NCBI GenBank assembly: GCA_032622095.1
Contig: CP136065.1
Coordinates: forward strand, 249,053,474 to 249,117,473
Length of the DNA stretch: 64,000 bases
Direction: 5' to 3'
From: Siphonodentalium dalli
Taxonomy: Eukaryota; Mollusca; Scaphopoda; Gadilida; Siphonodentaliidae
This document shows, piece after piece, positions 8,717 through 58,215 of this stretch. The notes under the pieces are model-generated. The model saw only the letters and a list, made by a program, of their open reading frames with translations, was not told the DNA's origin and ran no database searches. A program made the translations under genes and the position numbers. The stretch's first letter is position 1. Every line of letters begins with the position of its first letter.

Positions 8717-8725
8717 ATCTCTTAA

Positions 8726-9125: not shown

Positions 9126-9226
9126 GACATAGTTTTGATTTTGTAAAATTTCTCTAAAGTTGGCATTATGTGTAGTATATCTCACCCCCTCTGTCTGAGT
9201 CACATATCTGACTGAATAATACTTAC

Positions 9227-9570: not shown

Positions 9571-9738
9571 TGTGGAACATGAATGTAGAACTTACGTCAT
9601 GAGACGTCGTACAAGACCCCAACTTGCTTCCGAATGGTGTATATGCAACTTGCAACAAGCTACGAGAATAATGTTGGAAATTGGCGCTAAATGCTCTTTT
9701 AATCTGCCAGTTGATTCGGTTGAGTGTAAATATAAGTA

Positions 9739-10858: not shown

Positions 10859-10985
10859 ATGGATGTTGATTCCATTGAGGCAAGTTGATCTGACATTTTA
10901 ATGTTTGAAACGCTTTCGCATTCCACAAAAAATGTCAGACCAACTTTCATCGATACTAATGGAACGCAACCTAATCAACATCCAT
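10859..10985. mobile_element. Foldback MITE, 127 bp
   Basis: The terminal arms ATGGATGTTGATT and AATCAACATCCAT are exact reverse complements, and pairing continues inward through TCTGACATTTT. The element lies in intron 7 of USP12/46, directly after the 560-bp repeat. Confidence 0.7.
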
Positions 10986-10989
10986 TACT

Positions 10990-12165
10990 TAAATAAATCA
11001 AGAAAGATCAGAGCATTATAAGAGAAGCAATGGCTATTTTTTAGTCATCAGATAATCTATTTTGAGTCATAAAAGGGTGCAACTCCATCAAAACTTACCT
11101 GAAATTTGAATTCAACCTGTACTATTCAATTGTTACCAATGTTAACTGCTTCATGAAATTCATTTCCACATTCTTCAATTTATCAACGGGACACAAGGGG
11201 CATAACCATATTAGGAACCATCGGAAATGACACAAACAACGTGCATTGTATCTTCATGATTAAAGACAATGTACAAAATATCATAAAATTCTGTTGAATA
11301 TTCAAGTTATCATGCAGAAAAGAAACTGTTTCAGAAGAATTGAGCATATACACACTCCTCTTATTACAGTCCCCCAAATTTCTGTTTGGGGGAACATCAG
11401 AAGTAACACATTTAAGAAGACCCCTGAACATTTTATAACGATATCCCACATCCATATCACATGTATGGCATATCACATGGGGCCTTGGTGGTAACGAGAA
11501 TCAAGCTGTAAATTTTTTTATTTCCATTCATTTCAGTTGAACATTTTTTTAAATTAATGACTAAAGGGTCTTCTACATTTAATTGCTATTTTAAAGCTAT
11601 ATAAAGTAAAGTAATTATCTCCAAACATTAGCTTTAGAACTTTGTTTAGCCTTTCTGTACTAAGAGGATTCTCCCACATATAAAAGTTATAAAAGTATAC
11701 TTTGGAATGGTCTATTATTTATCTGGAGGGATTTTCAGGAAAATTAAGCAGAGGCAGATAATACATAAGTACAGAAGGAGTCATTTTTATTGGAAGGAAA
11801 TGTTCAGATAATAAGATCAACAAACAACCTATGTCGAACTTAGTATCTGAACATTTCCTGATGGATAATTACTCGTCAATGAGTATTTAGTATTTAGAGT
11901 TAACACAAATGAATGGTGTGTCTCAAATTCAAATCTTTTCCAGTAAATAAAACAACTGCTGTAATAAGGAGCTTCACTATTCTGTACAACAAATAAGCTA
12001 CTCAGCTCATAAGTCGTCAAAACATTATTCTGCACATTTATACATGATCTACATGGCTCATTCATCAAACGCTATTCTGAATAAATGCTATCTCAAAAAG
12101 AAATGATGCTCAGTATGGTGTAACCAACCTAAGACAACTTTCAAAATGAAGACATAAATACTTAC
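10990..12165. other. USP12/46 intron 7, no feature recognised
   Basis: AT-rich intronic DNA. Open frames near 11183-11494 and 11829-12068 show no family resemblance or splice context. Nothing further was identified. Confidence 0.6.
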
Positions 12166-12298
12166 TGTGTTGAAAAGCCTCAGCTCCAGAGGAAACACAA
12201 CCCTGTATGATAACTTTGTATATCTGTTAACATGTTCCATATATTTAAATCTTTTTAAATGTAAAGCTAGAATCTGTGGTAACTTTTTCACTCGCATC
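12166..12298 (-). CDS. USP12/46: USP12/46 exon 7
   Basis: On the minus strand, acceptor TTGTTGCAG is followed by one base completing a split Arg codon, then 44 codons starting [17 protein letters not shown] and ending [10 protein letters not shown] before donor GTAAGT. The LALHLKRF stretch is a core USP strand close to human USP12/46. Residues about 225-268. No acceptor duplication is present. Confidence 0.96.
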
Positions 12299-12746
12299 CT
12301 GCAACAAGATAAAACTTGTTTATTACATCTCTATTGGCAATTTATATATAATAAAGATTTTAAATATACAAGTGATAAAAACAGGTAAGCAGAGGTCGTG
12401 TCTGTACCATATTTATGGTGCCTCTGATCATCATAATACCCCATGAATAGATATTATCAACCCCATTACAATACATACATGTAGACCTACAGTTATTGGT
12501 ATTTCAAAAGTTAATATTGATAAACTGTCCTAATTCAGATCCAAAATAGTGAGTCAGAGAAGCTGAGATAGCCTTAGATTCTCTCTCAATGCTCATCATT
12601 TTCAAAACTAGTCAATGGGACGGGGACAGCTCCTCCCATACACACTCCCAACTCAGGCAATAACCCTTGGTGATGGTCAGAAAACAGGTGTCTCCAAAAA
12701 ATCATGCATCCATCCATGTGTTTGGTTTATATAAAATTAAGTAAAA
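12299..12746. other. Intron 6 sequence, nothing recognised
   Basis: AT-rich intronic DNA without visible repeats or coding sequence. Confidence 0.5.
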
Positions 12747-13078
12747 GTTCGGACAACCACTATCGGAAACATTTCTGTTGTAAGAAGTAACCGGTAGTTG
12801 GACTGCACATGCTCACGCCAAGATCGCAAGTCCAAAAAAAATATCAAGCACTATTTGATTTAGATGCGAAATTGTGGCGTATCCTTGGTTACCTCCACTT
12901 GCGACATAATCGCAGTTGTGTGTACGTAAAAATTGTAGCTGGAAAGAGCATAGGGTAGTCAATCACATACTTATGAACAACCCATGATATCATCATCTAC
13001 GGCGACTTCGCAATCATGTGAACAAACTATCCATGATTTTGTCAGGCCCGATTCCTCCACTTACGATTGAACGTTCAC
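12747..13078. repeat. Dispersed repeat, copy 1 (MITE-like)
   Basis: The segment aligns by eye with 23530-23910, sharing GTGGCGTATCCTTGG, TACCTCCACTTGCGAC, GGTAGTCAATCACAT and GCCCGATTCCTCCACTTACG. The second copy keeps inverted ends (TGAACGTTCAGAC against GTCTGAACATTCA), so this is probably an old DNA-transposon derivative. It lies in USP12/46 intron 6. Confidence 0.75.
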
Positions 13079-13191
13079 AAAGAGTTGTGTACTGCTTCAG
13101 GTTTTAGCATATTTATCTGCAGTACCAGTCTTAGCTTAAAATGATGTTTTGGTCAGTTGGTTTTTCAGTAAATTGGTTACTGATTACTGAC

Positions 13192-13352
13192 CTTTTCTGT
13201 GCCTCTTGCTTGCTGCAGCAGACTTCACAATAGTATTTATACTCAGAACAAAGTGTTTCTGTGTTACTGAATCCACGCAGACAGTGAGTTATTGAAGTGT
13301 TTTGCTCAACATCCACTGATAAATCGAGAAAATCTTCATCTTTACTGCTCAC
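13192..13352 (-). CDS. USP12/46: USP12/46 exon 6 (second CxxC)
   Basis: 161 bases on the minus strand between acceptor TCTCTCGCAG and donor GTCAGT. The product starts [17 protein letters not shown], continues [18 protein letters not shown] and ends [14 protein letters not shown] plus two bases of a split Arg codon. The CEVC pair is the second half of the zinc site in the USP fingers subdomain. It is nearly identical to the human proteins as recalled. Residues about 171-224. Confidence 0.96.
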
Positions 13353-13395
13353 CTGCGAGAGAAAATAAATATTAATATAAACATATCACTTACAT

Positions 13396-13677
13396 TTAAC
13401 CCTTCCATGACTGGTATATATGGAGCTTCCTGACATTTTGCGAAAACCCAGTGACAAATGCATTCTCTTATACATGTCTATATGTGTGTAGTCTCCCATA
13501 GGGAGCCTCGCATATAAGAGAATACATTGGCCTAACAATATATACCTTGACCTTGCAAGCCAGTGCATTCTCTTATATATACGAGGATCCCTATGTGAGA
13601 CTCGCAAATATAAGAGAATGCACTGGCACAGGATTTTTAATGCTGCACCAGCGCATCTCCCATCATGAAAGGGTTAA
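13396..13677. mobile_element. TTAA MITE with paired palindromes (family B)
   Basis: The left end TTAACCCTTCCATGACTGG and right end CCCATCATGAAAGGGTTAA are near inverted repeats. Inside are two palindromic segments related to the ATTCTCTTATATATGCGAG palindrome of family A. Relatives are at 21375-21640, 53663-53896 and 63874-64000. It lies in intron 5 of USP12/46. Confidence 0.8.
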
Positions 13678-14023
13678 GAAATGACACACACATGTATAGA
13701 ATGGCTTACAAAATATGGATCTTCATGCAACACAAAATTGGGCTGTTTTCCAGTAACAAGTGCGTAACAAATATCGATAATGCCTAAAAACAAAATAGTG
13801 ATGTTTCCAGTGACCAAGGGGGAACAGGCAGAAATTATTTAATTTTTTTTTTGATACATCGATATATGGAGTATATTCATTCCCTAATATATGCCCCTGG
13901 CACCCCAAGAGGACATAATGAGCACATTACATTGTATTGGAAAGGATAATGAAGCCTTGGCAGTATTTTTTTAATAAAAAATGATCACAACATCAACTGC
14001 CGGTTGAACTGGCCCATATACAC

Positions 14024-15034
14024 TAGAGGTGCCACGATTATTGATTTTGATAATCGATCATCAATAATCGACTATAATCGATTAATCGTACCTAATAATA
14101 ATAACATCAGTGGAAGTATTCCGTAATCTGGCCTATTGCCATATTGGCTGGGTGCTGGTTAACTGCTATCGCTGCTTGTTTGAGGCAACGTCTGATGTAA
14201 TTTTTGTGTTAATAAAGACTAATGAGCACAATGTCTTCAATACAAGCACAGATCTCGGCGATGTCATGGTTATAATATTTGTGAGTTCATTGGAACGAAC
14301 GTAGCGATTAATTTAACAGCCAAACATACAAGCAAAGTAGGAATGCACAAAGGAATCTAATGTTACGGAAACTATAAGTTTCAGCGAACTTCCAGAGCAT
14401 GGATAACAATTACAAAGGTTGGCCCCCTCCATGCAAATTTCAGGACTAAGGACAAGTTAAGTATATGGTAATAGTCAATTTCATTTAGCAGTCACCACAC
14501 TATAAGCGATAGCCTGTACAGTACTAGTAACATCTAAGTATACTTATACAAACAAAGTATACTTGCTGCAAATGATACAGGGAGAATATCGCTGATTAAA
14601 ATGCTGTAGTTTCCCTGATTTTGAGAGAATGTCAATCAACTCCCCTTTGGGACAGTCAGCCCATTTCAAAGACATAGTGCCGTCTTTCTTGTAGAAATAT
14701 ACGATGTCGCATAAGTTCAAAGCTGCAGTACCGTCATGCAATTTGAAGATTATACAATGGCTCGAAGAGTAACCATGTCATCAAATGAACTGCCGGCTGT
14801 TTGCAACATATACTAGTAGTACTTAAGTTGTCGGAATCTCTTTGATACATTATCAAATGTTGTTAACCCCTAGGTTGTATATTAAACTGTGTAAAACAAT
14901 CAGGGTATTCAACATTAACCAACATTTTCCAACGTCAGAAATAAATAACGCAGATTAATCGACGATGGAAATGGTAATCGATTATCGGCTTTATCAACAG
15001 TTCATCGATTATACGATTAATCGTGGCACCCCTA
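14024..15034. mobile_element. Non-autonomous hAT element with 8-bp TSD
   Basis: Terminal repeats TAGAGGTGCCACGATTA and TAATCGTGGCACCCCTA are flanked by the identical 8-bp duplication ATATACAC (14016-14023 and 15035-15042). The 8-bp target duplication and GGTGCCAC-type ends are hAT hallmarks. Subterminal sequence is rich in AATCGAT motifs. Length is 1011 bp, without a transposase. It lies in USP12/46 intron 5. Confidence 0.88.
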
Positions 15035-15047
15035 ATATACACAAGGG

Positions 15048-15372
15048 CGTCACCATCTTAAAACACTGACTTCCAGTGTAAATAATACAGATCGCGACTG
15101 ATCAACAAACTGTTTTACTATGATTAGAGATCGATGAACGTGATTTCTGTTGTTTTTTTGCGACTCGCCATCTTAAAACACTGACTTCCAGTGTAAATAA
15201 TACAGATCGCGACTCGCCATCTTAAAACACTGACTTCCAGTGTAAATAATACAGATCGCGACTCGCCATCTTAAAACACTGACTTCCAGTGTAAATAATA
15301 CAGATCGCGACTGATCAACAAACTGTTTTACTATGATTAGAGATCGATGAACGTGATTTCTGTTGTTTTTTT
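15048..15372. repeat. 49-bp repeats within a longer duplicated segment
   Basis: A segment of about 115 bp starting GCCATCTTAAAACACTGACT and ending TGATTTCTGTTGTTTTTTTG occurs at both ends. Between them, shorter copies of the first 49 bp (ending ATACAGATCGCGACT) are tandemly arranged. It lies in intron 5, just downstream of exon 5. Confidence 0.8.
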
Positions 15373-15488
15373 GTTTGCGTTTAATAAAATTAGTAGGGGC
15401 GGATGTCTGGACAAGGGGCAGGTTACCGGAAACATCATTATTTAATTTTTAGGCCTAACTTCCAAAATACCAAGGGTGGTACACTTAC

Positions 15489-15613
15489 GGTTTCACAGTT
15501 GAGGCACCTTGTCTCGTTGGTCAAGGTTCCCTGGAATATGTCGTGCACCCACGTGGGATCTTTCCGACTGTTATTAGTCTGTGAGGTTTTTGTTTTGCCG
15601 CCAGTCTTTTCAG
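15489..15613 (-). CDS. USP12/46: USP12/46 exon 5 (first CxxC)
   Basis: 125 bases on the minus strand, from acceptor TTCATATAACAG to donor GTAAGT. Two bases complete a split Ala codon, then 41 codons follow: a low-conservation Lys/Thr/Asn-rich linker (EKTGGKTKTSQTNNSRK) and the conserved DPTWVHDIFQGTLTNET, ending RCLNCET. The CLNC pair is the first half of the zinc site. The linker is shorter than in human USP12/46, which accounts for most of the length difference. Residues about 130-170. Confidence 0.96.
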
Positions 15614-15910
15614 CTGTTATATGAATATAGGAACAAATACAGAGTTCATGGGGCTGATTATACGACATCTGTTTGACAGAAAGTAAATCTACATATTTTT
15701 ATCACATAATTAGCCCCTTCAGGGTTCCCACTATGAATTCAAAATGAAATTCAAGCACTTTTCAAGCACCTGGATATGTATTTTCAAGCACCATACTAGA
15801 ATAAGGTATATAGCTCAGGCAGTTAATAAAACCCAAAATTATTATCAATGGAAGGATACATTATAATAGAAACGGTAAAACAGATCAAATAATTATTTAC
15901 CTATTGGAAA

Positions 15911-16503
15911 ACAACATATCCATGAGATTATCAGTGGCAGCCTGCTGAGTACAGTTCATTGCGAGTCCATTCATTGTTAAATAAACAACATATCCATGAG
16001 ATTATCAGTGGCAGCCTGCTGAGTACAGTTCATTGCGAGTCCATTCATTGTTAAATAAACAACATATCCATGAGATTATGAGTGGCAGCCTGCTGAGTAC
16101 AGTTCATTGCGAGTCCATTCATTGTTAAATAAACAACATATCCATGAGATTATGAGTGGCAGCCTGCTGAGTACAGTTCATTGCGAGTCCATTCATTGTT
16201 AAATAAACAACATATCCATGAGATTATGAGTGGCAGCCTGCTGAGTACAGTTCATTGCGAGTCCATTCATTGTTAAATAAACAACATATCCATGAGATTA
16301 TGAGTGGCAGCCTGCTGAGTACAGTTCATTGCGAGTCCATTCATTGTTAAATAAACAACATATCCATGAGATTATGAGTGGCAGCCTGCTGAGTACAGTT
16401 CATTGCGAGTCCATTCATTGTTAAATAAACAACATATCCATGAGATTATGAGTGGCAGCCTGCTGAGTACAGTTCATTGCGAGTCAATTCATTGTTAAAT
16501 ATA
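15911..16503. repeat. Minisatellite, 74-bp unit, 8 copies
   Basis: Units begin ACAACATATCCATGAGATTA and contain GGCAGCCTGCTGAGTACAGT. Spacing is 74 bp. On the gene strand the last copy ends TTCCAATAG|GTAAAT, a donor-like junction, but exons 4 and 5 join in phase without it and no reading frame makes a phase-preserving exon. It lies in USP12/46 intron 4. Confidence 0.88.
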
Positions 16504-17223
16504 CACTTGCCCATGATTGTAAGGACCGAACAATGGAAAAATTCAATGGTTCATGCTCGATTAATTTTAATACAGGGCGCATCCATTTGTAATGCATGTA
16601 TTGCGCATGCTCGGGAATTACCGGAAATTAAGTTCGCGAAACGAAACTGAACTACTGCCGGTCTGATAACGTTGTATTGACGATCGCTAAATCTTTCGTG
16701 ATCGTCATTATCCTTAATGAATTAAGGCCATCTTCCCACTTAACATATAACAGTTTTGAATTCAAGCACTCATGCTCATTTTATTAAAAATCAAGCACTT
16801 TCATAATTTTCAAGCACCCGTACACTATGGCACCAAAACTCTATTCTAATACAAGGAAATCTTAAAATGACCTCCATAAATTTCACGTATGAAGAAGTTT
16901 CTGGTGGAGCATTATATGTATCAGATGCTATTCATCACATATCCAGGGAAGATAACCCCAACAACCTATTGTGCTGATATATCAATCTTGATGCCTGTTT
17001 TCAGAAAAAAGTGGCACTTTTAAAACCACATTATATTTCTTACTAAATCAGACTAAATCAAAATTTAATGGTATCTCAATTAATCAAACTGACTAGATAA
17101 TATATTTAAACTTATTAAATGGCCAACATAGAGTGCGCTCTGTAAAACATTTTTTTCATCTATTCCACCATAGAAAGATTTAAATCCCTTTTCAGATGAC
17201 CGTCTGTATAATAGATAAATTAC
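16504..17223. other. Intron 4 sequence, nothing recognised
   Basis: AT-rich sequence. ATTCAAGCAC and TCAAGCACTTT motifs occur on both sides of the 74-bp array (15748-15792 and 16756-16820), suggesting an older element there whose ends I could not define. Confidence 0.45.
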
Positions 17224-17304
17224 CTTGCAGCAAGTCAGCTACAGTGTTGAGTAAGTAGTTGAGGAATTCATGGGCATCTTGTTGCATATAGTTATCAAAC
17301 ACAG
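17224..17304 (-). CDS. USP12/46: USP12/46 exon 4
   Basis: 81 bases on the minus strand after acceptor TTGTTTTCTAG. Two bases complete a split Ala codon, then [19 protein letters not shown] and TVADLLQ, ending with one base before donor GTAATT. QQDAHEF is the conserved USP box that follows the Cys box. The acceptor with the first 20-odd exon bases is duplicated once directly upstream (17305-17357). Confidence 0.95.
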
Positions 17305-17357
17305 CTAGAAAACAAAACAAATACATATAGTTATCAAACACAGCTAGAAAACAAAAC
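17305..17357 (-). repeat. Duplicated exon 4 acceptor of USP12/46, 39-bp unit
   Basis: On the plus strand ATAGTTATCAAACACAGCTA plus GAAAACAAAAC is found at 17286-17318 (exon end and true acceptor) and again at 17325-17357. The second copy carries the 3' splice site and the exon 4 start to the FDNY codons. Confidence 0.85.
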
Positions 17358-18562
17358 ATTATAATTATAATAGTGCTCAGCAGCGTTCACACTGGACCAA
17401 AAAATCTTTTGGCCAAATGATAATTTTATTGGCCAAATTAAAAAAAACTTTGGCCAAATTAAATCCTCATTTTTCGGAAAATAAATGTGTGAGCGAGGGT
17501 TTTAGTTATATTTTTTATTTTGTTCTGCCCATAGTAAGCATGGGTTATTATACCTTCCCAGGTCCAGAAAATATAGAGAGAACTTTGTAATGGATATAAA
17601 CTAATTTAATCTGATATAAAGAATGACAAATCAGACATTGTACTACCCGTACATCATATAGGGATTACCTAGAATGATATATACGATTTTAATATCGGCA
17701 CAATGTTTTTTAACAACACGCAGAACTACATATCCGATTCACATAACAATACGGAACATAAATACAGTCGAAACAAAAAGATAAAGTGATCTTACAAACA
17801 ATCATAGAAAGTCTTCGATTCACATATTCCACTGATTAGAGACTATATATATGTATAACCATCATAAACATGGCCAATACACATGTACACCGCTTGTCAA
17901 ACTGCTCTGGTTTTCATACCTTCGGTTGCAATAGCGTAGCAAGGGGAAAACACTATCTTGCGTGGTTCCTTACTTATTGTGCAAAGGTCGCCAATATCAG
18001 GTTGGCGGACGACTCATTCAATATCCAACTTCCTGCTTTTATCGAAATATTTCAACACATTTGACCAATAAAATTGGGGGTATGGACAGCCTATGGTAAC
18101 AATATACCTGATAGTTATCGTTGACTATGGTCTTTTGTTGAATATCCACACATACACCGTTGTATTTAGCTCCTATTCGATATTTGATAAATAACTAATT
18201 TCCGTGTTACCGGTTTACAATTACAGTGAAATCCAAAATCGAAATAAAATAGTCCAACGTGGGCCATTTTTCTCGATGCGGCGAAATCTGAGAATCAAAA
18301 CCCTTTTTTTTGGCCTTAATTATGCCTTTATTCCTTTAACATTAACAATTCCCTCACTCAACCCTTAATGACAGAAGCATTATGCTTCCTACAGGTTCGG
18401 ATTCAAGTTTAGTCTGCGGTCATAAGTATCTCACTTTCAAATTCAAATTGAACCATGATTGTATGTTAAAATGTATACTGAATACTTGCATTACCCTACT
18501 AGTACATGTAATCATAAAGGAAACCTTCAGTTACAATAAAATTATAAAATCTAGTTACAAAC
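17358..18562. other. Intron 3 sequence
   Basis: AT-rich intron. A run of GGCCAAA/TTGGCC motifs lies at 17395-17465 and TTTTTTTTGGCC near 18305-18316. No element boundary or coding exon was found. The open frames at 17870-18064 and 18382-18642 have no recognisable content. Confidence 0.5.
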
Positions 18563-18782
18563 CATTTTCTTTTCGTAGTCTTGTAATAAACTTTTTAGGA
18601 GCTAAGGTGCCGACTTTCTTCTTTTGGGTTGCTATACTGTAGAACAGGTCACCAAGGCAACTTAATAAAGTCTCTTTTTTTTGGTTTTTAAACTGCTGCT
18701 TGAATTGTAGAACTTTTTCTCTAAAAGGACGGCAGAAGTACAAGGCTTGTAGCACAGAGTTGCAGTAGCACGTGTTACCAAA
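18563..18782 (-). CDS. USP12/46: USP12/46 exon 3 (catalytic Cys exon)
   Basis: 220 bases on the minus strand from acceptor ATATTTCAG. The product begins [17 protein letters not shown], the USP Cys box; Cys of NTC (about residue 33, equivalent to human USP46 Cys44) is the nucleophile. It continues through [20 protein letters not shown] and [13 protein letters not shown], ending in one base of a split Ala codon before a weak donor, GTTTGT. The phase is compatible with exons 2 and 4. Two extra copies of its acceptor and first codons lie upstream (18783-18925). Confidence 0.95.
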
Positions 18783-18925
18783 CTGAAATATATAGAGAAC
18801 ATGTTTTAGGCTTGTAGCAGAGTTGCAGTAGCACGTGTTACCAAACTGAAATATGTAGAGAATATGTTTTAGGCTTGTAGCAGAGTTGCAGTAGCACGTG
18901 TTACCAAACTGAAATATATAGAGAA
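18783..18925 (-). repeat. Two extra copies of the USP12/46 exon 3 acceptor, 63-bp unit
   Basis: The plus-strand segment GGCTTGTAGCAGAGTTGCAG plus TAGCACGTGTTACCAAACTG plus AAATAT recurs at 63-bp spacing, with acceptor positions near 18783, 18846 and 18909. Each copy holds an intact 3' splice site and about 38 bases of exon 3, including the codons of the catalytic Cys box. Relative to the true exon, both copies lack 2 bases in the GCACAGAG stretch, so they share an ancestor. Confidence 0.88.
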
Positions 18926-18949
18926 TATTTTTTTGACGAATTCAGAATA

Positions 18950-19050
18950 TGAGAATTCTCATGCGAGGGTACAAGCAAATACCGATTTTCCACGAGTGGC
19001 TTACCGCGAGTGGAAATCGGTATTGGCTTTTACCCATGAATGAGAATTCT
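18950..19050. repeat. Foldback hairpin, 100 bp
   Basis: Left arm TGAGAATTCTCATGCGAGGG through ATACCGATTTTCCAC pairs with GTGGAAATCGGTAT through ACCCATGAATGAGAATTC. It is a small MITE-like foldback in intron 2 of USP12/46. Confidence 0.7.
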
Positions 19051-19208
19051 TTTATTCAATCAAAAGTCCTATCATACCAAATTGGTTACTTGGACATATT
19101 TATCCAGATCCAGATAATGCCAGTACAAACATTGCAGATGTTCTTTAGGACAAACTTTTTATAAGGATTGGAAAATGGATGAGATCATATGAGTACAAGT
19201 ATTACATG

Positions 19209-19886
19209 CAGACCTGTTTACTTTCCCGTAAATGCGGTCTTCAATGTCCAGACAAGGATTATAATATATCAAACAAGAAGCCATCCTTTTTTTAATAAAG
19301 TGTTTCTGTTCGTCCCGACCGACTGCTTTAAAATCGGCGACTCAAATTATTATATTGCCGATTTAAACTTTTTGTTTGTTTTTGTGTTGGTGAAAGTTCC
19401 GTCTTTGTGGTTTCCGTGTTTTGCATATGCAATAACAGAACGCGAATCGAACGGACCTCAAACAATTCTGTCAATGCCTATTCTCTTTAAATTCACCGAT
19501 GTTACCTGATGTTACTGAATATATTTTGCGACAAAATTATCCGAGAGCACCATTTTATAGCGTGCAAATATAGTTTTAATCGTTGTATTGCTTGTTCGAA
19601 ATAAAACGTGATCCATAACCGGAAAATCATAATTTTATTCCCAATGATTCAGTGATTTTAGAAATTAGATACTCTCCGTGTCAAGGCCGTTAATTATGGC
19701 AGATGCAAACCAAATACAACAAACAGTCTATGTGGCATTTAAATAAAAATATGAAGTTTTCTCCATGATACTGACATTGAAAAAAATCTCCCTATTTTTC
19801 ACTAAATCTCCCTATTTCTGAGGACAAATCTCCCTATTTCTGAGGATAAATCTCCCTATTTCCAATTTTGAAAGTAAACAGGTCTG
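19209..19886. mobile_element. hAT-type MITE
   Basis: The ends CAGACCTGTTTACTTTC and GAAAGTAAACAGGTCTG are exact inverted repeats. They are flanked by ATTACATG and ATTGCATG, an 8-bp duplication with one difference. Near the right end, ATCTCCCTATTTCTGAGGA is repeated three to four times (about 19785-19865). A 106-codon frame at 19189-19509 overlaps the left end and looks like chance. Confidence 0.82.
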
Positions 19887-20414
19887 ATTGCATGCACTGA
19901 CGAAGGCTAAGTGTATTAATGTACGGTATAAAGTGTCAGTGAAAATATATCAATCATGCAGGCCTGATTATTTGAGGCAAACGACTGTTATCTAAAATGA
20001 AAATGCCATGAACGAAACACATGCCTAAGTTTTATAAATGCAGGTCTCGCGATAACTAATTCACACCTTAATTTTTGCTCAATCAAGTCCCAAAACGAGA
20101 CATTCAAATTTATTAATGTAGTTCAATGAGTTGCCCATCTGTAATTAATAATACCAGTTGTAGTGATTATAACAGTTTCTGTTACTCTCCTGCTAACCTA
20201 TGGTATGGGTTACCTAAGCACAAACCAGGCGAACGAAAAATAGGTTACAAGTAATTTTGAAACCTGCAGGCCTGTCATGACATGTCAAGTGTGCTGGTTA
20301 AGCATAGTGAAGTTACCATAATGAACCAAATAAAATCTTTTAAATTAGAATTTGTAATATGTATCAGTTTAATATAATTAATGAGACCTAAACGAGTAGA
20401 TCTATGTTACATAC

Positions 20415-20495
20415 GTTGACTAATCCAAAGTAGTGCTCATTAGCTGGAAATTGCTCTGAGCCAATTTCTTTCTCCAATTGGGATGCATTGGCACC
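20415..20495 (-). CDS. USP12/46: USP12/46 exon 2
   Basis: 27 codons on the minus strand between acceptor TTTTTTTCAG and donor GTATGT, reading [20 protein letters not shown] then HYFGLVN, phase 0 at both ends. It matches the start of human USP12 just after its internal Met (MGANASALEKEIG) and of Drosophila Usp12-46 (MGAN...), as recalled, so an upstream exon ending in ATG is expected. Five further acceptor copies lie upstream (20496-20930). Confidence 0.95.
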
Positions 20496-20930
20496 CTGAA
20501 AAAAAGAAGAATTAAATATAAATAAATTATGTATTATCATGTGGAGATTGAGGATATATAATTGGCACCCTGAAAAAAAGAAGAATTAAATATAAATAAA
20601 TTATGTATTATCATGTGGATATTGAGGATATATAATTGGCACCCTGAAAAAAAGAAGAATTAAATATAAATAAATTATGTATTATCATGTGGAGATTGAG
20701 GATATATAATTGGCACCCTGAAAAAAAGAAGAATTAAATATAAATAAATTATGTATTATCATGTGGAGATTGAGGATATATAATTGGCACCCTGAAAAAA
20801 AGAAGAATTAAATATAAATAAATTATGTATTATCATGTGGAGATTGAGGATATATAATTGGCACCCTGAAAAGAAGAAGAATCAAATATAAATAAATTAT
20901 GTATTATCATGTGGAGATTGAGGATATAAT
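20490..20930 (-). repeat. Acceptor array before USP12/46 exon 2, 74-bp unit x 6
   Basis: GGCACCCTG starts at 20490, 20564, 20638, 20712, 20786 and 20860, an exact 74-bp period. On the gene strand each unit ends CTTTTTTTCAG|GGTGCCAAT: 62-65 bases of intron end, the AG and the first nine or so bases of exon 2. The first unit is the real exon boundary, the other five are decoys. One copy has a GAAAAGAAG variant in the pyrimidine tract. Confidence 0.92.
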
Positions 20931-30134: not shown

Positions 30135-30271
30135 ATTGAAAAATGACGAACACCAAAGGTTACAGGAGGGGTACTCGATACCTCTTCTCGAGGCAGTTCA
30201 GGAAGAAGGGCCCAATTCCACTTTCTACTTATATGAAAGTCTACAAAAGGGGAGATATTGTTGATGTGAAG
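30135..30271 (+). CDS. RPL21: RPL21 first coding exon
   Basis: Acceptor CACCTTTTTCAG is followed by ATTGAAAA and the start ATG at 30143-30145. 43 codons read [19 protein letters not shown], then [20 protein letters not shown] and VDVK, ending in phase 0 before donor GTATGT. The Lys/Arg-rich N-terminus with TKGxRRGTR is diagnostic for eL21. The start is fixed by homology to human MTNTKGKRRGTRY. No acceptor duplication is seen. Confidence 0.97.
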
Positions 30272-31765: not shown

Positions 31766-31878
31766 GGTACAGGTACAGTGCAGAAGGGCATGCCACATAA
31801 ATATTACCATGGAAAAACTGGTAGAATCTTCAATGTTACAAAGCATGCTGTTGGTGTTGTCGTCAACAAGAGAGTGGG
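31766..31878 (+). CDS. RPL21: RPL21 second coding exon
   Basis: Acceptor TTATTTTTCAG is followed by 37 codons and two bases: [20 protein letters not shown], then [17 protein letters not shown] and the first two bases of Gly, before donor GTAAGA. The segment [17 protein letters not shown] is the most conserved block of eL21 and folds into its beta-barrel core. Phase 2 at the end matches every acceptor copy of exon 4 (one base then CAT). Confidence 0.97.
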
Positions 31879-31904: not shown

Positions 31905-32530
31905 TACTGGGGCATGCCACAAATAATAATTGATTTAGGCTGCTATTATATATATATAAATCAACAACTTATATTTGATAATCACCCCATTTTATGAACC
32001 CCAATATAAATTACCTAGTATACAAATGTATAAAACAGATGACATATTGCCATGCCAAGTTATTTTTGATTCATGGTCGAATTTCAATCTGAATTTTTAC
32101 GGGGAAGATATTTTGTGCCTACATCTTAAAGTCTTGACAACTTGAACTTCTGTCCCAAAACTAACGAGATGAAATCAGTCTTTGAAATTGGTCGTGGAAA
32201 ACGCTGTGGCAACATGTGTAATCCAACATGCCACAGCATTAAATTTGCCATGGGACATTTTTCCCAATTTCGAGGGCTGCATATGAGAATTAAATTGATG
32301 CAATTGGGGACACTGATAAAAACATGATTTAAATAATTTAATTTACTACATCCAGCAAGCTTATTTGATTTTAATCACCCCATTTTATAAACGCTAAAAA
32401 GTAATAATTACCTAGTAATATATAAACATATTGACATAAATAAAAAAATCCAAACTGATGCCCACAGAAAAGTCTTGACAATTTGAATTTTATCCCAAAG
32501 CTAACAACATAAAATAATCAAGAACTGAGC
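31905..32530. repeat. Diverged internal duplication in RPL21 intron 3
   Basis: AATCACCCCATTTTATGAAC through GTCTTGACAACTTG and ATCCCAAA-type sequence (31980-32165) recurs at 32376-32515 with changes. Between them is a short hairpin, GCTGTGGCAACATG against CATGCCACAGC (about 32200-32236). Function unknown. Confidence 0.55.
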
Positions 32531-32534
32531 AATT

Positions 32535-33075
32535 AGCATCATTATACCCCCACAATTAGCATCACTATACCCCCACAATTAGCATCATTATACCCCCACA
32601 ATTAGCATCATTATACCCCCACAATTAGCATCATTATACCCCCACAATTAGCATCATTATACCCCCACAATTAGCATCATTATACACCCACAATTACATC
32701 ATTATACCCCCACAATTAGCATCATTATACCCCCACAATTTGCATCATTATACCCCACAATTACATCATTATACCCCCACATTTAGCATCATTATACACC
32801 CACAATTAGCATAATTATACCCCCACATTTAGCATCATTATACACCCACAATTAGCATCATTATACCCCCACATTTAGCATCATTATACACCCACAATTA
32901 GCATCATTATACACCCACAATTAGCATCATTATACCCCCTCAATTAGCATCATTATACCCCCACAATTAGCATCACTATACCCCCACAATTAGCATCATT
33001 ATACCCCCACAATTAGCATCATTATACCCCCACATTTAGCATCATTATACCCCCACAATTAGCATCATTATACAC
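32535..33075. repeat. 23-bp minisatellite, left half
   Basis: About 23 copies of ACAATTAGCATCATTATACC plus CCC, with shortened and A-for-C variants. The array is interrupted by the hAT element at 33076 and resumes at 37986 with the same unit, so the two halves were one array. Confidence 0.93.
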
Positions 33076-33560: not shown

Positions 33561-34442
33561 ATGATGGAATTGAAAAGTCAGGAAGATCTTTCGAAAAAGG
33601 AGGAGAATATTAAAAATAAATTTAAATGGAGCTGGCTTCAGGAAAAGGATGCTAATGGTGACTATTTGTCTGACTTTGTGCGAAAAATTGACCGTCCTGG
33701 CTTCGCAAAATGTTTGTGGTGCAACAAAGATATCAGCTACGGAAACGAAGGAAAGAAGGCCTTAAAAGTACATTCAAACTCAGTGCTACATCGTGGACAT
33801 CGTAAAAACATACAAACAAATCAGTCTCTACCTGCAACTTTCTTCAATGTAAAAGTCAAGCAGGGCATATTGCAACCAGAAGAAAAACAATCCCTTCCTG
33901 GTGGTGGTGATCGCGAAAGGTGCACTCTCCCCTATGGGGCACCTCTTAATGTGCATGATGGAAATCTGTGTTCCAATAACATTCGGAAGCCAGATGTGAA
34001 ACCTTTTGTGAACATTATTGATAGAAAATCGTATGCAGAAGGCCGAACATTGGCATTTTTGTGTGAGAATTCTCTTCCGTTATCACTTGCACCACATCTG
34101 ATAAAATATGCAAAGGAGATGGCTAGGGACCGTGCAGTACTTGGGGAGTTATCCATGGAGCGAACAACTGCAAGTTATAAACTCAAGGATGGATTGGCAG
34201 AAGCGTACCATAAAGCGCTTGTTCGTGACATGAAATATTCAACATTCTCCCTGAATAATGATGAGTGCTTAAGCAACAAAAATGAGAAGGTACTTTCCAT
34301 CCTTGTGTCGTATTTTAGTGAAGAGGAGGAGCAAGTTGTTGTCAAGCACTATGCTTCAGTTTCGATGAAAGTGGTGAATGCTGAGACTCTTATCAATATG
34401 GTTCTGGACTTATTCGATCAGACATTCCTCTGCATAATCTGA
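33561..34442 (+). CDS. hAT transposase, N-terminal part (before frameshift)
   Basis: 293 codons. Residues about 14-72 form a BED/TTF-like zinc finger: W at KWSW, then CLWCNKDISYG and HSNSVLHRGH provide a C-x2-C ... H-x(6-8)-H ligand set. The middle region (about residues 150-220) is of the DUF4371-like type common in animal hAT proteins. FSLNNDECLSN near residue 230 is where the first catalytic Asp of hAT transposases is expected. The frame ends at a stop just after TFLCII, where the other frame continues with the family sequence HNLISNLSDSTNYMRG, so one base has been gained or lost near 34415-34430. Confidence 0.85.
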   Translation: MMELKSQEDLSKKEENIKNKFKWSWLQEKDANGDYLSDFVRKIDRPGFAKCLWCNKDISYGNEGKKALKVHSNSVLHRGHRKNIQTNQSLPATFFNVKVKQGILQPEEKQSLPGGGDRERCTLPYGAPLNVHDGNLCSNNIRKPDVKPFVNIIDRKSYAEGRTLAFLCENSLPLSLAPHLIKYAKEMARDRAVLGELSMERTTASYKLKDGLAEAYHKALVRDMKYSTFSLNNDECLSNKNEKVLSILVSYFSEEEEQVVVKHYASVSMKVVNAETLINMVLDLFDQTFLCII

Positions 34443-36157
34443 TCTCAAACTTATCCGATTCAACTAATTATATGCGAGGTAAAACCAGTGGCTTCGAAAC
34501 TCGCCTTCGTGAGGAGGCATCACATCTGCTTGACATAGACGGTGATGTTTGCCATCATGTTCATAATGTTGTCAAGCATTTCACAAGCCATTTTGATGAC
34601 TACATCGAAAAACTCACTGATGATGTCCACATTGACTTCAAATGGTGCCCAGATTTACGTGACTATTTGGAGAGACTATGCTCACTGTTAGGCATTACTT
34701 ACAGTTCACCGAAAGATAGGATTGAACACCGGTGGCTTTCAGTTCTTGATGCCGTAAATCCAATTTTGATGATGTTGCCAGCCTTAAAACTTCTTTACAC
34801 TGCGTGGTTGACAAAGGACGATTCACAATGTTACCAAATAATGATATACTCTGAACTACTCGATGGACTAAGTGAAGGTGGCAAAAAAGAAGTTAAAAGG
34901 ATAATAAACCTAGCTCGCAATAAGAAGTTGACAGTAGCTGCTAAAGAGAGGAAAGTGAGAATTATTGAGAAGATTTACCACACTGATACAAAAACTGAAC
35001 TTTATCTCAGCCTGTATTCAGAAATTCTGCCACTTTTCAAATCATTCATCCTGACGTTTGAACAGAAGGAACCGTTAGTTCACAGACTTTATGACGAACA
35101 AGTGGATTTGGTTAGACACTTTCTGTCATGCTTGATCAAGCATGAAATAGTGCGAGATGTAAGCGATACAAAACTCAAAAGTTTAGATGTACATGATGAT
35201 GAGTCTCACCATTCATTACATAAAATGTATTATGGTGCAAATACAGAGATGCTGTTGAAAAAGTTCCGAAAATCAGACAAAGATTCTGGGAATAATTTCA
35301 TGGAGAAGGTGCGAGATGCCTATGTGGAAACCTCCGAATATATTCTGAAAAAGTTCCCCCTGAACAACAGGTTCTTGCGATATGTGTCGGCAATTGATCC
35401 AAAGGCAATTGGTCATGGAGTGACAAATGATGCACTCAAGAAATTGTGTACATTTTTCCCAAGTGTTCTGAAGGATTGTGATAGAAATAACTTCTTCATG
35501 GAATCATCAAAGATCCAGTTAGATCCTACGTTACCAGATGCTCTGGAAGTTGTGGATGGCCAACGGAAACCGGTCAGACTAGATTTGTGGTGGGCGAAAA
35601 TATTCAAGGATAACAAATATCCCACAGTTAGTAAGATTGTAAAAGCCTGCCTAAGTATATTTACATCACCACATGTTGAGCAGTCCTTTAGTAGTATGAA
35701 CTACATCGTAAACAAAACGACAAATAGACTGCACACGAGAACCTATTCGGCTTATCAAACTGTTCGTTATGAACTCCGATCGAAGAATAAATCTTCACTG
35801 GAGTTGTTCCATCGTGATGACATTCATCATGACAAAATAGACAAGAGTGTTTGTTACCATCTTCAAACCTCGTACGGTCGGTATAAGAAACAGTTGTTAA
35901 CTAAAAGAAATGAAAAGAAGGAGGAAACTGCTTTGCTTGAACTGCCAAAAATTTCCAAAAAAACAAAAACCACACATCAGAAGGCAAAACTGATAAAGAA
36001 CTCAATCATGTCTGTGAGGAAATATGGACAAATCAAGGAAAACATTTCTGCTACTAAACCACAATCAATTTATACAGTGACAGGTTCCAAAAGGAAATCT
36101 CCATGCAGTTCACTAAAAAACTACACAATCCCAAAAAGAAAGAAAATGGAAAAGTAA
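34443..36157 (+). CDS. hAT transposase, C-terminal part (after frameshift)
   Basis: A frame of 561 codons from the ATG at 34472, open further upstream to the frameshift. It starts MRGKTSGFETRLREEASHLL and DIDGDVCHHVHNVVKHF, which is internal sequence for this family, so the ATG is not a true start. The C-terminal hAT dimerisation region is clear near residues 370-430: LDLWWAKIF, then SPHVEQSFSSMNYIVN. The last 70 residues are Lys-rich with a likely nuclear signal (KRKKMEK). Apart from the frameshift the coding sequence is intact. Confidence 0.85.
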
Positions 36158-37985: not shown

Positions 37986-38436
37986 TTATACACCCACAAT
38001 TAGCATCATTATACCCCCACAATTACATCATTATACACCCACAATTAGCATCATTATACCCCCATAATTAGCATCATTATACATCCACAATTAGCATCAT
38101 TATACACCCACAATTAGCATCATTATACCCCCATAATTAGCATCATTATACATCCACAATTAGCATCATTATACCCCCACAATTACATCATTATACACCC
38201 ACAATTAGCATCATTATACCCCCACAATTAGCATCATTATACCCCCACAATTACATCATTATACACCCACAATTAGCATCATTATACCCCCATAATTAGC
38301 ATCATTATACACCCACAATTAGCATCATTATACCCCCATAATTAGCATCATTATACATCCACAATTAGCATCATTATACCCCCACAATTAGCATCATTAT
38401 ACACCCACAATTAGCATCATTATACACCCACATTTC
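37986..38436. repeat. 23-bp minisatellite, right half
   Basis: About 19 copies of the same CAATTAGCATCATTATACCC unit as 32535-33075, with CATAATTAG and ATACATCCAC variants. It continues the interrupted array after the hAT insertion. Confidence 0.93.
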
Positions 38437-48861: not shown

Positions 48862-49280
48862 TATAGACTAGCCTTCTGGCCAGGCAGGGTATCGGAAACA
48901 GAGGTTTTGTTTTGGCCGTATACGCACCTTTTATGTGGATAACATTGTCCTACCTATGGCGGTATACTGTTCATGTTTTGATAATAAAATATATCTAGAT
49001 TAAAATCTGTTGAATATTTTAAATTCTTGTCATGGTTATTAATATTGGTATGTTGAGTGCCAACTGCCATTTAATAACATGTAAAAAAAAATAATGAAAT
49101 AATGTGCACTTTGTACTCACTGAATGTGTACAGCAGCAATTTTCGTACAATTTGGTTTTGTGTGGATCGTAAATGAAAATATCTCATTGTGAAAGTCTTG
49201 GGATATAATTATCTGGGCTGGTAAGCCTAACTTTCAGCACATAAATGTATATGTGTATATTTTTCCCTCATTTGTTTCAA
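48862..49280. other. Intron 3 sequence just before the acceptor array
   Basis: AT-rich. It ends with TTTTTCCCTCATTTGTTTCA and then the first unit of the array. Nothing else recognised. Confidence 0.5.
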
Positions 49281-52147
49281 ATAATTCACCTTTATCTTAA
49301 CAGGCATCGAATCATCCCCAAGAGAGTCAACTTGAGGGTTGAGCACATAAAACACTCTAATAATCCACCTTTATCTTAACAGGCATCGAATCATCCCCAA
49401 GAGAGTCAACTTGAGGGTTGAGCATATAAAACACTCTAATAATCCACCTTTATCTTAACAGACATCGAATCATCCCTAAGAGAATCAACTTGAGGGTTGA
49501 GCATATAAAACACTCTAATAATCCACCTTTATCTTAACAGACATCGAATCATCCCTAAGAGACTCAACTTGAGGGTTGAGCATATAAAACACTCTAATAA
49601 TCCACCTTTATCTTAACAGGCATCGAATCATCCCTAAGAGAATCAACTTGAGGGTTGAGCATATAAAACACTCTAATAATCCACCTTTATCTTAACAGAC
49701 ATCGAATCATCCCTAAGAGAATCAACTTGAGGGTTGAGCATATAAAACACTCTAATAATCCACCTTTATCTTAACAGGCATCGAATCATCCCTAAGAGAA
49801 TCAACTTGAGGGTTGAGCATATAAAACACTCTAATAATCCACCTTTATCTTAACAGGCATCGAATCATCCCTAAGAGAATCAACTTGAGGGTTGAGCATA
49901 TAAAACACTCTAATAATCAACCTTTATCTTAACAGGCATCGAATCATCCCCAAGAGAGTCAACTTGAGGGTTGAGCATATAAAACACTCTAATAATCCAC
50001 CTTTATCTTAACAGGCATCGAATCATTCCCAAGAGAATCAACTTGAGGGTTGAACATATAAAACACTCTAATAATCCACCTTTATCTTAACAGGCATCGA
50101 ATCATCCCTAAGAGAATCAACTTGAGGGTTGAGCATATAAAACACTCTAATAATCCACCTTTATCTTAACAGGCATCGAATCATCCCTAAGAGAATCAAC
50201 TTGAGGGTTGAGCATATAAAACACTCTAATAATCCACCTTTATCTTAACAGGCATCGAATCATCCCTAAGAGAATCAACTTGAGGGTTGAGCATATAAAA
50301 CACTCTAATAATCCACCTTTATCTTAACAGGCATCGAATCATCCCTAAGAGAATCAACTTGAGGGTTGAGCATATAAAACACTCTAATAATCCACCTTTA
50401 TCTTAACAGACATCGAATCATCCCTAAGAGAATCAACTTGAGGGTTGAGCATATAAAACACTCTAATAATCCACCTTTATCTTAACAGGCATCGAATCAT
50501 CCCCAAGAGAATCAACTTGAGGGTTGAGCATATAAAACACTCTAATAATCCACCTTTATCTTAACAGGCATCGAATCATCCCTAAGAGACTCAACTTGAG
50601 GGTTGAGCATATAAAACACTCTAATAATCCACCTTTATCTTAACAGGCATCGAATCATCCCTAAGAGAATCAACTTGAGGGTTGAGCATATAAAACACTC
50701 TAATAATCCACCTTTATCTTAACAGGCATCGAATCATCCCTAAGAGAATCAACTTGAGGGTTGAGCATATAAAACACTCTAATAATCCACCTTTATCTTA
50801 ACAGACATCGAATCATCCCTAAGAGACTCAACTTGAGGGTTGAGCATATAAAACACTCTAATAATCCACCTTTATCTTAACAGGCATCGAATCATCCCTA
50901 AGAGAATCAACTTGAGGGTTGAGCATATAAAACACTCTAATAATCCACCTTTATCTTAACAGGCATCGAATCATCCCTAAGAGAATCAACTTGAGGGTTG
51001 AGCATATAAAACACTCTAATAATCCACCTTTATCTTAACAGACATCGAATCATCCCTAAGAGACTCAACTTGAGGGTTGAGCATATAAAACACTCTAATA
51101 ATCCACCTTTATCTTAACAGGCATCGAATCATCCCTAAGAGAATCAACTTGAGGGTTGAGCATATAAAACACTCTAATAATCCACCTTTATCTTAACAGG
51201 CATCGAATCATCCCCAAGAGAATCAACTTGAGGGTTGAGCATATAAAACACTCTAATAATCCACCTTTATCTTAACAGGCATCGAATCATCCCTAAGAGA
51301 CTCAACTTGAGGGTTGAGCATATAAAACACTCTAATAATCCACCTTTATCTTAACAGGCATCGAATCATCCCTAAGAGAATCAACTTGAGGGTTGAGCAT
51401 ATAAAACACTCTAATAATCCACCTTTATCTTAACAGGCATCGAATCATCCCTAAGAGAATCAACTTGAGGGTTGAGCATATAAAACACTCTAATAATCCA
51501 CCTTTATCTTAACAGGCATCGAATCATCCCCAAGAGAATCAACTTGAGGGTTGAGCATATAAAACACTCTAATAATCCACCTTTATCTTAACAGGCATCG
51601 AATCATCCCTAAGAGACTCAACTTGAGGGTTGAGCATATAAAACACTCTAATAATCCACCTTTATCTTAACAGGCATCGAATCATCCCTAAGAGAATCAA
51701 CTTGAGGGTTGAGCATATAAAACACTCTAATAATCCACCTTTATCTTAACAGGCATCGAATCATCCCTAAGAGACTCAACTTGAGGGTTGAGCATATAAA
51801 ACACTCTAATAATCCACCTTTATCTTAACAGATATCGAATCATCCCTAAGAGAATCAACTTGAGGGTTGAGCATATAAAACACTCTAATAATCCACCTTT
51901 ATCTTAACAGGCATCGAATCATCCCTAAGAGAATCAACTTGAGGGTTGAGCATATAAAACACTCTAATAATCCACCTTTATCTTAACAGACATCGAATCA
52001 TCCCTAAGAGAATCAACTTGAGGGTTGAGCATATAAAACACTCTAATAATCCACCTTTATATTAACAGGCATCGAATCATCCCTAAGAGAATCAACTTGA
52101 GGGTTGAGCATATAAAACACTCTAATAATCCACCTTTATCTTAACAG
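49281..52147 (+). repeat. RPL21: Decoy-acceptor array before RPL21 exon 4, 79-bp unit x 36
   Basis: Each unit carries the end of intron 3 (AATCCACCTTTATCTTAACA then G) and the first 58 bases of exon 4 (CATCGAATCATCC... to AAACACTCTAAT). The first exon-like start is 49304 and the true exon start is 52148; the 2844-bp distance is exactly 36 x 79, so no indel has disturbed the period. CTCTAAT in the exon part also fits a branch-point consensus for the next acceptor. Splicing to any unit except the last would read 24 codons and stop at the TAA of CTTAACAG. No donor consensus is present in the unit. Variants form a higher-order pattern, with a four-unit block recurring near 50480, 51191 and 51507. 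Confidence 0.97.
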
Positions 52148-52298
52148 GCATCGAATCATCCCTAAGAGAATCAACTTGAGGGTTGAGCATATAAAACACT
52201 CTAATTGCCGTCTGGATTTCTTGAAACGAGTTGAACAAAACGACAAAATAAAGGCTGAGGCAAAGGCTGGTGGTCCAAGACTAATTCTGAAACGACAG
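52148..52298 (+). CDS. RPL21: RPL21 third coding exon
   Basis: It starts at the last AG of the array. One base completes the split Gly codon, then 50 codons: HRIIPKRINLRVEHIKHSNC, RLDFLKRVEQNDKIKAEAKA, GGPRLILKRQ, ending phase 0 before donor GTATGT. Human eL21 has KILAKRINVRIEHIKHSK at the same place. The first 19 codons are identical or nearly so to all 36 upstream decoy copies. Only this copy is followed by the rest of the exon. Confidence 0.97.
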
Positions 52299-52308
52299 GT
52301 ATGTACCA

Positions 52309-53337: not shown

Positions 53338-53408
53338 TTCATTAATTTAACTTATTTACATTTAAGCTTGGTGGACATATAGTCAACACGAGGAGGAACG
53401 CTCCATAT
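53338..53408 (+). repeat. RPL21: Duplicated acceptor of RPL21 exon 5
   Basis: ATTTAACTTATTTACATTT(A/C)AG followed by exon-like GGACATATAGTCAACACGAG and GAGGAAC is found here and again at the true exon (53433). The decoy ends GCTCC before the intron sequence resumes. In the decoy, 12 bases of exon start (within CCTGCTGGCCCTCTTG) are missing and the pyrimidine before AG has become A, which weakens the site. Confidence 0.9.
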
Positions 53409-53432
53409 TAATTTAACTTATTTACATTTCAG

Positions 53433-53522
53433 CCTGCTGGCCCTCTTGCTGGACATATAGTCAACACGAGGAGGAACACTCCAACCATCTTGGAGCCCAT
53501 CAAATACGAGTTTATTGCATAA
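53433..53522 (+). CDS. RPL21: RPL21 last coding exon
   Basis: 29 codons and a TAA stop: PAGPLAGHIVNTRRNTPTIL then EPIKYEFIA. The ending EPIxYEFxA is the eL21 C-terminus. The acceptor is TTTACATTTCAG. AATAAA follows 4 bases after the stop (53527-53532). Confidence 0.97.
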   Translation, partial: PAGPLAGHIVNTRRNTPTILEPIKYEFIA

Positions 53523-54970: not shown

Positions 54971-55463
54971 GTGCACTTGTGTATGGAGCAAAAATGGTTT
55001 ACGAATGATTGCTTAACCCTGTATACGGATGCTGCCGGCTCTTTAGGCTTTAGTGGAATCTTCGGTAACCAATGGTTTTACTCAGCATGGCATAGCGATG
55101 TATCAGAAATCAACATCGCAGTGCTTGAATTATATCCTATAGTGTTGGCAATGCGTCTGTGGGGCCATACTTTAAAGAATAAACAGATATTATTTTTCTC
55201 CGATAATCAGGCGGTGGTTAGTGATCAATAAACAAACAACTAAGGAAAGGAATATATTGGAGTTATTACGTCAGTTAGTTTTGATATGCATTCAGAAGAA
55301 CATACATTTTAAAGCGAGGTATGTTCCGGGGAGAGACAATAGGTTGGCTGACTCTCTTTCTCGATTACAGGTACAGGAATTCAGGCGTTTAGCCCCCGAT
55401 TGCGATCCACATCCAGTGTCCATCCCAGTCGCGCTCCATCTCAAGAACTTAATCAAACCATGA
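54971..55463 (+). pseudogene. RNase H remnant of a DIRS/Ngaro-type retrotransposon
   Basis: The first frame (54971-55231) contains LTLYTDAAGSLGFSGIFG and LELYPIVLAMRLWG, then ILFFSDNQAVV: the D ... E ... D catalytic order of RNase H. A frameshift near 55225 moves to a second frame (55221-55463) with LELLRQLVL and FKARYVPGRDNRLADSLSR, the end of the domain. Reverse transcriptase, which should precede, is missing, so the element is 5' truncated. RNase H directly followed by a tyrosine recombinase is the order of DIRS and Ngaro elements. Confidence 0.78.
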
Positions 55464-56347
55464 ACACTTTATTACAGAATGCAATATCACCGGCAACTCA
55501 TAAAGCCTACAGTAGTGCCTTGGAAAAATTCAATTTATTTTGCGCTCAATACCAATTACCGACCACAATGCCTATCAAACCTAACAATTTAGGTTGGTTC
55601 ATAGCACATTTGTTTAATCGGAAATATGCTGCAAAGACAATTTCTTCAATCATGTCGGCGATATCATATGTCCACAAAATGCATCACCTACCTGACCCAA
55701 TGCAGTCGTTTATGCTGCAAAAAATATTGGTGGCAGTACGAAGACTCCGACCGTCAATTGACGTACGTTTACCAATCACTCAATCTATTTTGCATAATCT
55801 AGTGCGAGCCGTACGACCATGTAGTGACACATTTTATATCACTCATCTATATGAGGCTCTGTTTACATTTGCATTCTATGCATTTGCTCGGATAGGAGAA
55901 CTGTGCCCGCCACAAGCAAACATGCAAGCAAATGTTTTGCAGCTGTCAGATGTCAGCGACACGATTCTGTAACAACAGTCACTTTCCGCAAATTCAAACA
56001 CAATATCGATGGTAAACCTCATTATCACGCTACCATCTTCAAGCCAGTCGAATTTTTGCCCAATCAGGTTATTACGGCGGTATATTGAGTTGCGAGGCAC
56101 ATCAAATGGCCCTCTTTTCATTAATAGTGATAGCACCCCAGTATTACGTTCACAATTTGTCAATAAATTGCAGCAATGTTTGGCATATTTAGGCTTGGAT
56201 TCCACTAATTTTAAAGGCCATTCATTTCGGATTGGGGCATGTACATGGGCCGCTGAGAAGGGTTTTTCTGATGCACAGATTAGACTAATGGGGAGATGGA
56301 GGTCAGACGCTTTTAAGCATTACATTCGTAGTCAACCATTATTATAG
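55400..56347 (+). pseudogene. Tyrosine recombinase of a DIRS/Ngaro-type retrotransposon
   Basis: It overlaps the end of the RNase H frame by about 60 bases. The N-terminal SAM-like core-binding domain is seen in LLQNAISPATHKAYSSALEK and FNRKYAAKTISSIMSAISYV. The catalytic domain has FARIGEL (first Arg), then a frame change at about 55960 (SVTTVTFRKFKHN in another frame) and back at about 56065, then GHSFRIGACTWAAEKG (His and Arg), LMGRWRSDAFKHYIR (Trp and nucleophile Tyr). Both frame changes compensate, so it is a decayed copy of a family with intact catalytic residues. Such recombinases integrate a circular cDNA instead of an integrase. Confidence 0.82.
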
Positions 56348-57946: not shown

Positions 57947-58215
57947 GGCGGTCTTTTGGTCGCCCACAACATTATTTTTAGGTTATGTAAATATTCTATT
58001 TCAGGATTCGTTATGCGGTCTTTTGGTCGCCCGCAACATTATTTTTAGGTTATGTAAATATTCTATTTCAGGATTCGTTATGTATATAAATATTTTATGA
58101 TTTTCTATATAAATGTCCCATCTCAAAAACACAGCTGATGGGAGCCATATCCACAATAAAACAATGTCTTCATCTTTCTTCACTCTAACCCTGGGTCGTT
58201 ATGCATAAATATATA
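57947..58215. repeat. 200-bp direct repeat, copy 2, with 66-bp tandem start
   Basis: The first 66 bases (GGCGGTCTTTTGGTCGCCCA to TTTCAGGATTCGTTATG) are repeated once before the full copy from 58014, so the local order is short copy then full copy. The junction contains an acceptor-like TTCTATTTCAG|G. Confidence 0.8.

Follow-up and report, generated by a model that had tools for sequence, protein, structure and literature searches.

Tandem duplications of intron–exon boundaries at acceptors of RPL21 and USP12/46 in a probable lophotrochozoan, with 37 units at one RPL21 exon

Introduction

Competition between identical splice sites on one transcript was studied in the globin minigene tests of the 1980s, in which engineered constructs carried duplicated splice sites; these constructs were artificial and contained few copies. 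A natural case is the IFI6 gene (G1P3, 6-16), whose minisatellite has a short unit of 12 nt. From the work of Turri et al. in 1995, this minisatellite is said to contain multiple splice donors. In the passages of PMC4526556 that concern it, IFI6 carries a splice-donor minisatellite, the report of Turri et al. 1995 being cited there and in PMC2572611; as in the arrays presented here, its units hold splice sites at an exon border, but those of IFI6 are donors that are used and give rise to alternative mRNAs, whereas ours are acceptors. The closest counterparts are the ‘mirages’ of amphioxus, which the relevant passages of PMC3087553 and PMC3902484 place in Adh3, the globin genes BflGb6 and BflGb9, TnC and PGBD5. 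These are minisatellite-like tandem duplications of an intron–exon boundary in which the intron end with its acceptor and the start of the exon are repeated, the genuine exon stays intact, the units are homogenised and splicing is reportedly undisturbed.

Here, we describe arrays of this structure in a 64,000-nucleotide stretch of DNA from a probable lophotrochozoan, referred to below as the window. According to the passages cited above, the amphioxus mirages affect both boundaries, and their unit number is 3 or 6 for BflGb6 and 2–7 for PGBD5, whereas the six arrays of the window, which are distributed over two neighbouring genes, are without exception at acceptors, and one of them has 37 units in a ribosomal protein gene. 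The initial annotation of this DNA knew of no described gene with such an arrangement; this view has to be given up, as the amphioxus mirages are the same arrangement and IFI6 has its splice-donor minisatellite. In our literature search, which for some queries covered part of the hits, was mostly at the level of listings and included few subscription papers, we found mirages reported neither from a lophotrochozoan nor with tens of units. Hence, the kind is already known, and what appears to be new is the taxon, the 37-copy scale, the ribosomal gene and the clustering and density at acceptors. In the passages of PMC3087553 and PMC3902484, mirages are reported from amphioxus only; the arrays presented here extend them to what is probably a lophotrochozoan and are also a warning that gene prediction may meet duplicate exon starts inside introns.

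A 79-bp array at the acceptor of RPL21 exon 4

Four coding exons on the forward strand, located at 30143–30271 (the first), 31766–31878 (exon 3, donor GGG/GTAAGA, cut at the slash), 52148–52298 (exon 4) and 53433–53522 (exon 5, the last, with the stop codon), join to an uninterrupted eL21 of 160 aa, in agreement with the initial identification of the gene as RPL21. The first coding exon is preceded by a putative 5′UTR acceptor, the acceptor-like TTTTTCAG before 30135. The predicted eL21 matches solved eL21 chains over the full length, and its nearest named relatives by identity among the matches listed are bivalve proteins (71–75%), which fill six of the first eight rows, the second being an insect entry, Ranatra, at 57% and the seventh carrying no name.

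Intron 3 measures 20,269 nt, and across its boundary with exon 4 TRF called an array at 49280–52205 (forward strand) with period 79, 37.0 copies, 98% matches and 0% indels. The earlier description of a unit that joins the intron end to the exon start is confirmed: 21 nt of intron are followed by 58 exonic nt, i.e., 1 nt plus 19 codons, and all copies encode the eL21 residues. The acceptors lie at 49304 + 79k (k = 0 to 36), so that the distance from 49304 to 52148 is exactly 36 × 79, as had been stated, and the AG is kept in 37/37 copies. The units fall into 11 distinct sequences in an ordered arrangement, and their exonic parts encode four peptides, with differences limited to one I/V/L and one H/Y position; in a homology search, the upstream copies matched the same eL21 residues as the genuine start of exon 4. 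The last copy (acceptor 52148) is the only one that continues into the remainder of exon 4. Repetition extends to 52205 and the whole exon, which comprises the 58 nt of this copy and 93 unique nt, to 52298, in front of a single donor at 52299 (CAG/GTATGT, cut at the slash). The genuine exon is intact at the array edge, the eL21 frame runs through the last copy only, and from this frame 52148 is predicted to be the acceptor used in the RPL21 mRNA.

The branch-point-like CTCTAAT that had been assigned to the intron end is indeed present within 40 nt of 36/37 acceptors, but for these 36, including the real acceptor, it falls within exonic sequence of the copy immediately upstream, and copy 1 lacks it. 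Its role as a branch point is our guess from the consensus.

Further arrays at acceptors of RPL21 and USP12/46

The neighbouring gene, USP12/46, lies at 8070–20495 on the reverse strand, so that the two genes, which together span 8070–53522, are divergently oriented. Eight coding exons (20495–20415, 18782–18563, 17304–17224, 15613–15489, 13352–13192, 12298–12166, 9370–9227 and 8171–8070) give 348 aa without interruption; the exons found do not include the one with the start codon.

Mirage-type duplications of 2–37 copies were found at 6 of the 12 acceptors of the two genes and at none of the 10 donors (Fisher P = 0.015), one of the acceptors counted, 30135, being derived from sequence alone. 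Four of these arrays belong to USP12/46 (reverse strand). At 20495, the acceptor of the first exon found (GAN...), a 74-bp unit with only 9 exonic nt is present six times (20487–20928). At 18782, the exon with FGNTCYCNS, which we take to be the catalytic Cys box, is preceded by a 63-bp unit in three in-frame, stop-free copies (18743–18933), and at 17304 a 39-bp unit occurs twice, again in frame and stop-free (17285–17360). The upstream copies would insert 21 or 42 residues and repeat FGNTCYCNS at 18782, and 13 residues at 17304. The array at 9370 has three copies, built from a 63-bp unit and one longer, rearranged unit (9337–9566). The second RPL21 array, at the exon 5 acceptor (53341–53483, forward strand), consists of two copies. 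That on the upstream side has decayed, its CAG now reading AAG and 12 nt of its exonic part being absent, and its use would terminate the protein at codon 146 rather than at codon 161.

Local self-alignment scores separated the six acceptors (58–130) from the other six (15–20) and from the 10 donors (14–19), and stricter thresholds lowered the count to 5 and 4 of 12 acceptors. About 15% of 3000 random positions in the window reached or exceeded the lowest score among the six arrays, which gives a binomial P of 0.004 for 6/12 acceptors; against the same background, 0/10 donors corresponds to P = 0.2, and the lack at donors alone is not significant. TRF left two of the six arrays uncalled (17304 and 53433), and with its calls alone the comparison becomes 4/12 acceptors vs 0/10 donors (P = 0.096); of 10 acceptors examined with a 30-nt probe, four were detected, with 37, 3, 2 and 3 copies. 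A null model based on the placement of founder units yielded 0.23 expected TRF arrays on acceptors compared with the four observed (P = 1e-4). With a circular-shift test, which is conservative, chance was not rejected for the four acceptors that fall inside TRF arrays (mean under shifting 2.07, P = 0.14), because TRF arrays with a period of at least 20 cover 17% of the window. The enrichment of arrays at acceptors over this repeat-rich background therefore depends on the null model chosen.

Splice-site choice

The initial annotation regarded the 37 acceptors as equivalent and the upstream ones as decoys. Locally, the near-equivalence holds: an acceptor PWM derived from the window gave scores of 0.6 to 3.8 over the array and 2.2 for the last copy, a value equalled by 25 of the 36 upstream copies, and predicted accessibility was 0.62 for the last copy within a range of 0.30–0.76 for all 37. 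The term ‘decoy’, however, implies competition, and the simplest reading is that the upstream copies are inert intron sequence. Neither local signal nor accessibility distinguishes 52148; what does is its position as the acceptor nearest to the only donor, 52299. Among the 40 GT dinucleotides within the array, a PWM search for a usable splice donor of the IFI6 type found none, the best score being −2.1, while the 10 real donors range from 2.9 to 11.9 (leave-one-out, with a small PWM).

We consider it likely that the array is an intron-resident mirage minisatellite whose presence is tolerated since exon definition couples the only downstream donor to the acceptor closest to it. The 36 upstream copies would then remain within the 20-kb intron, while the spliceosome would define exon 4 from 52299 back to 52148 and skip them, since these copies supply acceptors but no site that could serve as a donor, and since the intron beside the exon is long; with 20,269 nt of intron, exon definition is to be expected. 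Boundary duplications could persist at acceptors in this way because the extra copies become intron and the mRNA is unchanged. According to the passages of PMC9225289 that deal with it, under exon definition and in long introns preference goes to the splice sites that are closest to each other across the exon, although with respect to the 3′ splice sites of long introns the same passages describe a reduced upstream preference and not a plain reversal. Acceptor 52148 yields an exon of 151 nt and the 36 upstream acceptors exons of 230–2995 nt, and in view of that 3′ result the victory of the 151-nt exon over the 230-nt one is not guaranteed.

For this situation NMD could be a backstop: with each of the 36 upstream choices the frame meets a stop at codon 106, and the next junction lies no less than 150 nt further on. 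A slip to an upstream acceptor would thus probably expose the transcript to NMD, and the earlier claim that only the last of the 37 acceptors gives eL21 stands. Where the upstream copies keep the frame, as at 18782 and 17304 of USP12/46, NMD would be no safety net, and accurate choice is needed. RPL21 exon 5 is the last exon and lacks a donor that could define it; the argument from the donor does not extend to its array, and another rule must hold there.

The same stops would be expected if the upstream copies were poison acceptors, used in a controlled fraction of transcripts whose stop-containing RNA tunes the level of eL21 by NMD autoregulation. NMD is known to regulate some ribosomal protein genes, all 36 upstream choices stop at codon 106, and 52148 is weak, scoring 2.2 (leave-one-out) in a range of 2.0–16.3 over the 12 acceptors. 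Nevertheless, we judge such regulation improbable, as the same structure occurs at USP12/46, where two of the four arrays are in frame and stop-free, so that the production of stops is not a common property, and as copy numbers vary from 2 to 37.

Three other routes were set aside. Recursive splicing was rejected, as GCATCG (29 copies), ACATCG (7) or ATATCG (1), and never GT, comes after the acceptor; the definition of units as pseudo-exons is unlikely because the unit lacks a usable donor; and there was no sign of RNA structure masking the upstream acceptors, predicted accessibility being similar between copies. The arrays constitute a natural dose series (2, 3, 6 and 37 competing acceptors) for testing whether exon definition alone fixes the choice of the 3′ splice site when local signals are equal, and in two of them, being in frame, there is no stop to trigger NMD.

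Gene neighbourhood and relationships

If this RPL21 were a dying or unexpressed copy, with another RPL21 serving the cell, the array could be a product of decay. This is a slim prospect: the 160-aa frame is intact and has introns, its identity to aligned lophotrochozoan eL21 (69–75%) falls within that among five of these relatives themselves (65–77%), and the gene adjoins USP12/46 as in other animals. Of 13 animals that could be paired from both homology listings, 10 have RPL21 and USP12/46 on contigs of equal size, taken as the same contig, the three pairs without equal contigs being Octopus (where the rows are from two species), Limulus and Araneus; in Batillaria and Solemya, the locus numbers of the two genes are consecutive. 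USP12/46 beside RPL21 thus looks like the ancestral neighbourhood of RPL21.

The listing of USP homologues is headed by a bird entry flagged as contamination (81%), followed by gastropods, a nemertean and an octopus at 88–89%, with nameless rows interspersed; bivalves named among the 120 rows listed reach 82–85%. In a concatenated tree, the window is placed among lophotrochozoans with surrounding support values of 37–38, outside the pair of Solemya and Mactra (100), which speaks against a bivalve, and Branchiostoma groups with hemichordates (94) and chelicerates (97) to the exclusion of the window. The DNA thus probably comes from a lophotrochozoan and not from Branchiostoma.

Possible origin and exchange of units

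At the junction between units, CTCTAAT on the exon side has AAT in common with AATAATTC on the side of the intron, which is consistent with a small duplication bounded by microhomology. The array may have started as a tandem duplication across the boundary of intron 3 and exon 4 with this 3-nt overlap, which would then have been amplified to 37 units. Pairs of identical units peak at lags of 3, 6 and 9 (12/34, 11/31 and 10/28), compared with 4–8 pairs at the other nine lags tried, and this pattern suggests an exchange between units in blocks of three. Besides this periodicity, the 98% identity is a sign of homogenisation, and edge exclusion is seen at the 5′ side only: copies 1 and 2 are unique types, and the last, functional copy is the commonest type.

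An assembly artefact in the presence or size of the array is the least probable alternative, for although the copy number rests on a single assembly and one of the mirages of amphioxus came out aberrant in the draft assembly, according to a passage of PMC3087553, the 11 unit types are in ordered arrangement, five smaller arrays, some with diverged copies, lie nearby, and such an error more easily alters a copy number than invents an array.

Among the exonic changes between copies, 5 of 8 distinct ones are synonymous, compared with 22–28% expected (P = 0.015–0.045, depending on the assumed transition bias; a small test), which hints that copies may at some time occupy the functional position or descend from it. 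A more tentative extension is that tandem duplication at 3′ splice sites is pervasive and acceptor-biased genome-wide: about half of the acceptors would have mirages, the spliceosome would reliably ignore dozens of near-identical upstream acceptors, and the exchange of copies would let the start of an exon be replaced from its own intron.

Other features of the window

A search of the 64-kb window against Rfam gave no match to snoRNA or other families at gathering thresholds, and a search with the 79-mer core gave none in viral contigs. Large homogeneous arrays were also found outside exons, at 3769–6372 (100 bp × 26) and 15909–16505 (74 bp × 8). A 67-bp repeat of two copies at 57948–58082 contains an acceptor-like TTTCAG and was considered as a further mirage; it was rejected, as it has no long frame and no identifiable exon.

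Within RPL21 intron 3, two arrays of one 23-bp unit in the same orientation (32530–33073 and 37986–38432, 92–94% alike) flank two ORFs that overlap in different frames (33561–34442 and 34385–36157), the latter of which matches the hAT dimerisation domain just above the cut-off; the two arrays are possibly the subterminal repeats of one element. Downstream of RPL21, a tyrosine-recombinase-like region at 55352–56347 consists of two ORFs in one frame separated by a stop, with an N-terminal SAM-like domain above the cut-off and an integrase domain slightly below it.
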